From Acrasis kona (Eukaryota > Heterolobosea > Eutetramitea > Acrasida > Acrasidae), in assembly GCA_026419775.2 (NCBI GenBank), contig JAOPGA020001533.1:1-39239 (forward strand): DNA of 39,239 nt, given 5' to 3'. The translations under genes were made by a program, and so were the position numbers. A model generated the notes under the pieces. That model had not been told where the DNA came from and ran no database searches. It saw only the letters and a list, made by a program, of their open reading frames with translations. This document shows positions 5,767 through 19,046 of the stretch, piece after piece. The stretch's first letter is position 1. Every line of letters starts with the position of its first letter.

Positions 5767-5849
5767 GCCAGCATAGCTTAGTGGTAATTTCATTGTAAAG
5801 CGTTCGCCTTGTAAGCGAAAGATCATGAGTTCAATCCTCATTGTTGGCT
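5767..5849 (+). tRNA. tRNA-Thr(UGU) with an 11-nt D-loop insert
   Basis: The acceptor GCCAGCA/TGTTGGC, anticodon stem TTCGC/GCGAA with loop CTTGTAA (anticodon UGU), and T-arm ATGAG/CTCAT pair well. The D-stem GCTT/AAGC encloses an 18-nt loop instead of about 7-9. Removing about 11 nt (ATTTCATTGTA, 5787-5797; borders ambiguous by a base or two) restores a normal 72-nt tRNA with D-loop AGTGGTA. The discriminator is T, as in the other tRNA-Thr in this window. A T-run terminator follows at 5853-5858. The extra segment is either an ectopic intron or an unusually long D-loop. Confidence 0.88.
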
Positions 5850-13631: not shown

Positions 13632-14101
13632 ACTAGATGTGTCCTATGAGGCGGGAAAATCTACTACACAGACGAACATTTATAAGGTTGACATTGAACC
13701 GAAAAAATAAAAAACACAACAAGAAGATAACGTCAAAGCTTCGGAGCAGAAGAAAAAATTGATTACATCAAGAAGGTAGCAGCACAATTTAATGAACAAC
13801 AGCAAGTGTTACCGAAGAAGAACAACCGAAAGACAACAAACAAGTTACGACGATAGATCCATCAAGAGTGTGAATCTAGATTACAACTACGACTGTGGTT
13901 CACATTTCCGACCACAACAAGAATTAAAAAACCAAAACAGAATTTTTATTAACATGAAAGCTTTTAAGCGACTGAACGTAATCTAGTCACCTGACACACC
14001 CTACGCTACATGTAAATTGCGCATTTTGTCATGTTGACGTTTATGATGATCGCGTGAAGAGTACAAGACGTAAACCAAGATAGCCGGTCGAGATAAAACT
14101 T
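13632..14101. other. Upstream region of CC2D2A, no gene recognised
   Basis: The sequence holds a 64-codon frame (13792-13986) rich in Asn/Arg/Gln without domain signals. It probably contains the CC2D2A promoter and the flank of the tRNA-Glu gene. Confidence 0.4.
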
Positions 14102-14204
14102 CTTCGATACCGGGAGTTTCGTATGCTATATTATCGAACCCGGGTCTAGAGAGTGAGAGTCTCTCATCCTACATGGCAGACGAAAACCACTGGACTATAT
14201 CGAA
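14102..14204 (-). tRNA. tRNA-Glu(CUC) interrupted in both the D-loop and the T-loop
   Basis: On the minus strand the acceptor TTCGATA/TATCGAA (7 of 7), anticodon stem AGAGA/TCTCT with loop CTCTCAC (anticodon CUC) and T-stem CCGGG/CCCGG (5 of 5) are perfect. The D-stem GTC/GAT is the form seen in eukaryotic tRNA-Glu. Two inserts break the standard layout: TTCGTCTGCCATGT (14 nt, 14171-14184) in the D-loop and AATATAGCATACGAAAC (17 nt, 14116-14132) in the T-loop. Without them the RNA is 72 nt, with D-loop CAGTGGTTAG and T-loop TTCGATT, position for position like other eukaryotic tRNA-Glu. The discriminator is G. TTTT lies 3 nt downstream. The internal B-box is split by the T-loop insert. Exact borders are ambiguous by a base or two. 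Confidence 0.85.
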
Positions 14205-18973: not shown

Positions 18974-19046
18974 AGGCTACTAGGAGAATCGAACTCCTGA
19001 CTTCCATCTTACTAGGATGGCACTCTGCCGACTGAGTTAAGCAGCC
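18974..19046 (-). tRNA. tRNA-Thr(AGU)
   Basis: On the minus strand the acceptor GGCTGCT/AGTAGCC, D-stem ACTC/GAGT, anticodon stem CCATC/GATGG with loop CTAGTAA (anticodon AGU) and T-arm AGGAG/CTCCT fold without any insert. The discriminator is T, matching the UGU isoacceptor at 5767. A T-run follows downstream. At 73 nt it is the uninterrupted reference for the other tRNAs here. Confidence 0.95.

Follow-up and report, generated by a model that had tools for sequence, protein, structure and literature searches.

The stretch of DNA analyzed here, which we call the window, comprises positions 1 to 39,239 of contig JAOPGA020001533.1 from the heterolobosean amoeba Acrasis kona. On its minus strand, at positions 14102-14204, it contains a tRNA-Glu(CUC) gene of 103 nt that is predicted to carry two ectopic introns, one in the D-loop and one in the T-loop. 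The first exon (14185-14204) comprises the 5' strand of the acceptor stem, positions 8-9, the 5' strand of the D-stem and the D-loop nucleotides AGTGGTT, and is followed by a 14-nt insert, ttcgtctgccatgt (14171-14184), directly before A21. The second exon (14133-14170) extends from A21 through the 3' strand of the D-stem, the anticodon arm with its CTC anticodon (14157-14155), the variable region and the 5' strand of the T-stem to the T-loop nucleotides TTCGAT, where a 17-nt insert, aatatagcatacgaaac (14116-14132), is located at 59/60. The third exon (14102-14115) consists of T60, the 3' strands of the T-stem and acceptor stem, and the discriminator G (14102). A TTTT stretch (14095-14098, minus strand), probably the RNA polymerase III (Pol III) terminator, begins four bases past the discriminator; TTTT within 20 nt of the discriminator is found in 81 of 83 parsed tRNA genes.

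A preliminary interpretation of the letters alone (the sequence-only reading) had described a tRNA-Glu(CUC) at this position with four intact helices and a terminator, and this description holds on the minus strand: the acceptor stem (TTCGATA/TATCGAA), D-stem (GTCC/GGAT), T-stem (CCGGG/CCCGG) and anticodon arm (AGAGA-CTCTCAC-TCTCT) are all intact. With the inserts in place the D-loop measures 22 nt and the T-loop 24 nt; removal in silico leaves mature loops of 8 nt (AGUGGUUA) and 7 nt (UUCGAUU), and the spliced tRNA is predicted to be 72 nt long, joined at GGUU^AGGAU and CGAU^UCCC. The same insert boundaries and mature length had been proposed from the letters, and the splice-motif analysis described below also picks the placements 14184-14171 and 14132-14116; the one alternative for the D-loop insert, a shift by one base, yields an identical mature sequence. 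The sequence-only reading had further held that the T-loop insert splits the B box. This is correct for the 3' end of the box, whose final positions are lost to the intron, but the B box retains GGTTCGAT, and the A box is intact. Both ARAGORN and Rfam (at the gathering score) miss the window gene, which ARAGORN names tRNA-Glu(ctc) after the inserts are removed.

In a bulge-helix-bulge (BHB) motif the endonuclease cuts each bulge between its second and third nucleotides. The motif is described in the accessible passages of PMC3978253 as a 4-bp helix flanked by two 3-nt bulges. At the D site of the window gene, exon nucleotides GUGG (14190-14187) pair with CCAU in the intron (14173-14176), and the 3' bulge reads GU^A (14172-14170); at the T site, UUCG in the exon (14138-14135) pairs with CGAA in the intron (14118-14121), and the 3' bulge reads AC^U (14117-14115). 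The unconstrained minimum-energy fold of the window precursor contains the cloverleaf, both exon-intron helices and both 3-nt bulges.

We scored this register systematically by counting pairs, including G-U, between two tetranucleotides: the exon nucleotides at -6 to -3 relative to the 5' cut and the intron nucleotides at -6 to -3 relative to the 3' cut. Cuts were restricted to those yielding the mature sequence, and the best allowed cut was taken alike for the data, every register and the shuffles. All 61 distinct introns, from nine families, form three or four of the four BHB pairs, and 38 of them form all four. The family mean is 3.65 of 4, compared with 2.18 (standard deviation 0.19) for position-shuffled introns, and none of 2000 shuffles reaches it; the BHB register (2,2) is the best of 35 register combinations, with the runner-up at 3.14. 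Ten introns outside the main test (nine of them retrieved later, six from Leu(UAG)) all score 4/4, their shuffles averaging 1.90 (standard deviation 0.28) with none of 2000 reaching 4. Where substitutions leave a single possible cut, as in Glu(CUC) copies L037 and L041, Lys L063 and Arg L103, this is the BHB cut with 4/4 pairs, and the 37/38 introns of tRNA-Val share the register of the ectopic introns. Among the non-Leu introns, an exon-side flanking helix adjoins the central helix at the T site of Glu(CUC), the 37/38 site of Val and the D site of Thr; at the Glu, Val and Lys 20/21 D sites it is present with one unpaired A14 between. Pairings of Glu(UUC) and Lys introns drawn by hand in other registers were superseded by this test. 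The introns are 10-21 nt long and do not qualify as group I self-splicing introns, which are structured catalytic RNAs of roughly 100-200 nt or more, and no intron sequence held a pointer to its origin.

The genome encodes proteins of the corresponding splicing machinery. Two PF01974 proteins match known structures, one Sen34-like (L048) and the other Sen2-like (L049). The Tyr, His and Lys of Sen34 and the Tyr and Lys of Sen2 align with positions of the matched chains that we take to be catalytic; the Sen2 His aligns to a Phe of its matched chain, which is presumably an inactivated construct. The N-terminal domain of Sen54 is encoded on contig C348, and RtcB, the ligase that our search covered, gave a full-length match at C620:31099-32220. 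A second RtcB-type locus (C179:73511-74681) is in pieces, the first of which spans two TAA codons; it is perhaps a gene with spliceosomal introns.

A search of the 37.35-Mb assembly (1021 contigs) with the window gene, in which every candidate was scored, returned 17 places: 15 Glu(CUC) and 2 Glu(UUC) genes. The middle-exon pattern, allowing up to three mismatches, likewise found 15 Glu(CUC) genes, and a reversed control pattern found none. All 15 carry both inserts (11 are complete, four are without the first exon), and the 11 complete copies all have the 7-nt anticodon loop CTCTCAC without interruption, with no 37/38 intron. Normal Glu(CUC) genes elsewhere, which the sequence-only reading had regarded as a sign that the window gene is a relic, were sought with the gene query and the middle-exon pattern, and neither found an uninterrupted copy in the assembly. 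A Lys(UUU) pattern with up to two mismatches (control: none) identified 12 genes, each with a D-loop insert of 10 nt that lies either at 15/16 or near 20/21; the two positions yield one mature sequence, predicted to read AGUCGGUA. These patterns allow two to three mismatches, and more diverged copies would escape them. Two pairs of Lys(UUU) genes near contig ends have flanks that are identical (L063 and L064) or partly identical (L061 and L062), and each pair may therefore be one locus assembled twice; the per-family parsing merges L063 with L064 and thus counts 11 Lys(UUU) genes. In nine open reading frames of the window, AAA accounts for 248 of 6120 codons (40.5 per 1000). Since AAA is common and all 12 Lys(UUU) genes are interrupted, either the cell needs splicing, or its tRNAs retain inserts, or copies are missing from the assembly.

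D-loop inserts occur in eight isoacceptors, six of which also have copies without a D-loop insert. For isoacceptors other than Glu(CUC) and Lys(UUU) the counts are lower bounds (in one search, the best 40 of 88 candidates were scored): at least ten Glu(UUC) genes with and six without a D-loop insert, at least six and one for Thr(UGU), four and two for Arg(UCU), ten and one for complete Ser(GCU) genes, and six and five for Leu(UAG). Among the complete Val(UAC) copies (at least 11), four have a D-loop intron alone, six have both a D-loop and a 37/38 intron, and one, in the window, has the 37/38 intron alone, which brings the copies with a 37/38 intron to seven of 11. The T-loop insert is confined to Glu(CUC) among the genes examined, and no interruption is seen in the Asp(GUC), Gly(UCC), Met(CAU), Ser(UGA), Trp and His genes retrieved. 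Human Ala, Ile, Phe, initiator Met and Gly tRNAs used as queries gave two matches, an Asn gene already known and an uninterrupted Ala(AGC). The whole-genome Rfam tRNA scan favours uninterrupted genes and is not a census, because just the best 63 of 2352 candidates were scored.

The exons of the interrupted genes are conserved to a degree that their inserts and flanks are not. We compared 56 insert-bearing genes from six isoacceptors (Arg, Leu and later-retrieved genes lie outside this comparison). The spliced sequences are fully identical within Glu(CUC), Ser(GCU), Lys(UUU) and Thr(UGU) (mean pairwise identity 1.000) and nearly so within Glu(UUC) (0.997) and Val(UAC) (0.989); across the same isoacceptors the means are 0.27-0.83 for the introns, 0.29-0.38 for the 5' flanks and 0.33-0.47 for the 3' flanks. 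Removal of the inserts collapses the copies of each isoacceptor to one or two mature sequences. The 11 complete Glu(CUC) copies have one mature sequence, with no exon or pairing decay of the kind seen in pseudogenes, while their inserts are 83% and their 5' flanks 29% alike. Insert-free genes have the same exons: one mature sequence is common to 15 of 16 Glu(UUC) genes (10 with an insert and all six without) and another to seven of seven Thr(UGU) genes (six with, one without), and the insert-free Ser(GCU) gene equals the predicted spliced Ser(GCU) product. The predicted Leu(UAG) product has the D-loop AGTGGTCTA, identical to the loop of three of the five insert-free Leu genes; the other two read AGCGGTCTA. 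ARAGORN names the right tRNA for all 56 genes after splicing in silico and for one of 56 before it, the other 55 being missed or misnamed. The twice-interrupted Val(UAC) gene L124 differs from other copies by two compensated base-pair changes in the acceptor stem, and this compensation on both sides is as expected of a tRNA in use.

What the sequence shows directly is how the gene is built, the splice motif and how far it is conserved, the census of copies, and the genes for the enzymes. From these we infer that the Glu(CUC) gene is transcribed and that its product is cleaved, ligated and charged. We consider it highly probable that the window holds a functional nuclear tRNA-Glu(CUC) gene whose two short ectopic introns are removed by the Sen2/Sen34 endonuclease and a ligase, most likely RtcB. 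The proposal of ectopic introns, already made in the sequence-only reading, is strongly supported by the invariant exons, the varied inserts, the insert-free sister genes, the BHB register and the splicing enzymes, and splicing is favoured over its alternatives because the register is shared, the inserts vary, and insert-free genes have identical exons. The tRNA genes are taken as nuclear because GC content along the contig is 34-46% in 2-kb steps and nuclear-type genes (SAPS, MIF4G, CEP76) are present; the mitochondrial DNA of A. kona is given as 83.3% AT in the part of PMC4202320 consulted. In the proposed mechanism, Pol III would transcribe a precursor that folds as a cloverleaf with extended D- and T-loops. 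For each intron, loop nucleotides of the 5' exon would base-pair with its 3' portion, and the resulting 4-bp helix, beside a bulge of 3 nt on the D-stem or T-stem, would form a relaxed BHB. Sen2/Sen34 would cut after the second nucleotide of each bulge at both introns, and the ligase, most likely RtcB, would join the exons into the mature tRNA of 72 nt. The D-loop introns of at least seven other isoacceptors and the 37/38 introns of tRNA-Val would be removed by the same system.

Several observations weigh against this interpretation. The strict hBHBh' form is all but absent: only two of the 61 distinct introns have at least two adjoining intron-side pairs, and because the intron-side helix is mostly missing we refer to the motif as a relaxed BHB. 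At the Lys 15/16 and Arg sites the central helix uses D-stem nucleotides and has no adjoining outer helix, and the adjoining exon-side pair in Ser is mismatched. The energy of the precursor fold is only mildly better than that of shuffles (z -1.62), which makes the fold an illustration and not a test. The Sen15 profile gave only a sub-threshold match (E 0.8), this protein being poorly conserved. The mature Glu(CUC) and Lys(UUU) sequences are predictions, because neither isoacceptor has an intronless copy. The assembly searched is smaller than the published genome estimate of 44.02 Mb (as stated in the portion of PMC11589745 consulted), and it may be incomplete or a different assembly, so that uninterrupted copies could be absent from it. 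Finally, GAG might be read by the Glu(UUC) tRNA through wobble.

The usually missing intron-side helix and the Sen15 match below the cut-off also count in favour of a reading in which splicing is real but is carried out by something other than Sen2/Sen34 and RtcB, such as another nuclease or a ligase like Trl1, and the excerpted text of PMC4033280 says that the yeast endonuclease acts at 37/38 only. However, the register of the introns is the endonuclease's own motif and is also present at Val 37/38 in the same genome, and the proposal made for the red alga Cyanidioschyzon merolae in a review (PMC3978253, in the passages available) is that introns at sites other than 37/38 are removed by Sen2/Sen34. 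We regard different enzymes as unlikely. It is still less probable that the inserts are retained and that the mature tRNAs simply have enlarged D- and T-loops. The helices do remain intact with the inserts in place; however, the inserts vary in sequence and in length, are lacking in genes whose exons are the same, and pair with their exons in one fixed register, for which there is no obvious function if the loop is retained. An enlarged T-loop would also be expected to spoil the contact between D-loop and T-loop.

Least probable of all is that the window gene is a relic in which small insertions gathered in a dispensable copy. In favour of this, the available part of a review (PMC4090602) does suppose that where one eukaryotic tRNA gene among many synonymous ones has short insertions in the D or T arm, these mark it as a pseudogene; four of the 15 Glu(CUC) copies are without their first exon because a repeat element has inserted there, and some Ser and Val copies are truncated. 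Against it, the inserts are found in all 15 dispersed Glu(CUC) copies and not in one alone, the 11 complete copies have identical exons, every Lys(UUU) gene found is interrupted, Val L124 keeps its acceptor stem through its two compensated changes, and the inserts obey the splice motif, all in keeping with the original view that the gene is not a pseudogene.

The finding that genes with identical exons can have no intron, a single one or two, at several positions, suggests that the introns are still being gained or lost. In this respect we think it probable that a population of ectopic tRNA introns lives in Acrasis, with BHB introns of 10-21 nt still coming and going in the D-, T- and anticodon loops.

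The four Glu(CUC) copies without a first exon (L042-L045, on contigs C834, C351, C812 and C770) have a repeat element inserted at the same D-stem nucleotide, and its right-hand 350-375 nt are 99-100% identical across the four. In L043 and L044, where both ends were seen, the element measures 978 and 1067 nt and is bounded by a 5-bp AGTCC target duplication; in the other two the left junction lies beyond the flank examined. One end of the element looks tRNA-derived and contains the B-box-like sequence GAGTTCGATTC, which suggests a tRNA-targeting element. A reading of L042-L045 as split or permuted genes was ruled out; they are Glu(CUC) genes broken by the repeat element. Four further copies, belonging to Ser(GCU), Val(UAC) and Ser(UGA), are truncated or degenerate (L125, L128, L129 and L144); an insert is still visible in the D-loop of L125 and at 37/38 in L129.

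The window contains other tRNA genes as well. A tRNA-Thr(UGU) gene on the plus strand (5767-5849) has an 11-nt D-loop intron (5786-5796), and copy L001 has the same mature sequence without the intron; Rfam at the gathering score detects this gene and not Glu(CUC). On the minus strand lie the tRNA-Val(UAC) gene (1211-1294) with its 11-nt canonical 37/38 intron (1257-1247) and an uninterrupted tRNA-Thr(AGU) gene (18974-19046). The window also encodes a CEP76/CC2D2A-type protein that, over 49% of its length, matches an A. kona protein with 100% identity; the next match is from Naegleria lovaniensis (37%).

If our interpretation is true, then archaea-like, position-independent tRNA splicing would be at work in a free-living eukaryote that is not an alga, and none of the cell's Lys(UUU) and Glu(CUC) tRNAs could bypass it. 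BHB introns in the D- and T-loops of so distant a eukaryote would mean that position-independent endonucleases evolved more than once or are older than supposed. Genes that share their exons and differ in their introns also provide a natural experiment on the gain and loss of tRNA introns, which is hard to obtain where genes are single-copy. Since ARAGORN misses or misnames 55 of 56 interrupted genes and Rfam misses Glu(CUC), the tRNA sets of related protists may be undercounted. What appears to be new is the lineage, together with the mixed intron states among copies with identical exons. Among the literature matches listed (titles and abstract starts, with subscription papers and preprints outside), none reports ectopic tRNA introns in Acrasis, Naegleria or Heterolobosea, and the main text of the A. 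kona genome paper, as far as available (PMC11589745), contains 'tRNA' twice, both times in reference to synthetases.

The sequence-only reading had described ectopic introns as established in archaea, some red algae and nucleomorphs, and the literature contains cases from all three: archaea, C. merolae and the nucleomorph of Guillardia theta. Ectopic BHB introns in the nuclear tRNA genes of C. merolae were reportedly described by Soma et al. in 2007 and 2013. Passages of PMC9602550 and PMC3978253 also report them for this alga, and a 2014 table (PMC4033280, seen in excerpt) presents it as the eukaryotic genome with multiple tRNA introns. In this alga the intron at 37/38 is the last to be removed (PMC3978253). 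The two systems are alike in their enzymes: Sen2, Sen34 and Sen54 have been identified in C. merolae too, for which the accessible text of PMC4090602 reports no Sen15; the Sen15 match in Acrasis is sub-threshold. However, Acrasis belongs to an unrelated lineage (Discoba, Heterolobosea), and its introns occur in multi-copy families and differ in presence, position and sequence among copies with identical exons. Permuted tRNA genes did not turn up in Acrasis, where no search was aimed at them.

The tRNA introns of the Guillardia theta nucleomorph are said to have been described by Kawach et al. in 2005. As summarized in parts of PMC4090602 and PMC3978253, they resemble those of Acrasis in being short (3-24 nt), in occupying non-canonical sites including the D and T arms, and in numbering up to three per gene. 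Whereas many nucleomorph introns are without a defined BHB in the available text of PMC3978253, every tested Acrasis intron has one, and the host is the nucleus of a free-living amoeba and not the remnant of an endosymbiont. The non-canonical introns of archaea (Thermoproteales and others) share the central 4-bp helix, the 3-nt bulge and the occurrence of multiple introns per gene, according to the portions of PMC8450103 and PMC6379350 consulted; the Acrasis genes, in contrast, are eukaryotic and nuclear, and their motif is mostly relaxed, without the intron-side helix.

The introns of eukaryotic tRNA genes are taken to sit at 37/38. A 2021 tool paper (PMC8450103, in the passages available) adds that these genes are limited to one intron. 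With the canonical introns, which occur in Val(UAC) in the same genome, the ectopic introns of Acrasis share the relaxed motif and probably the enzyme; however, the introns of Glu(CUC) are in the D- and T-loops, and a ruler based on the anticodon loop would not place the cut there.
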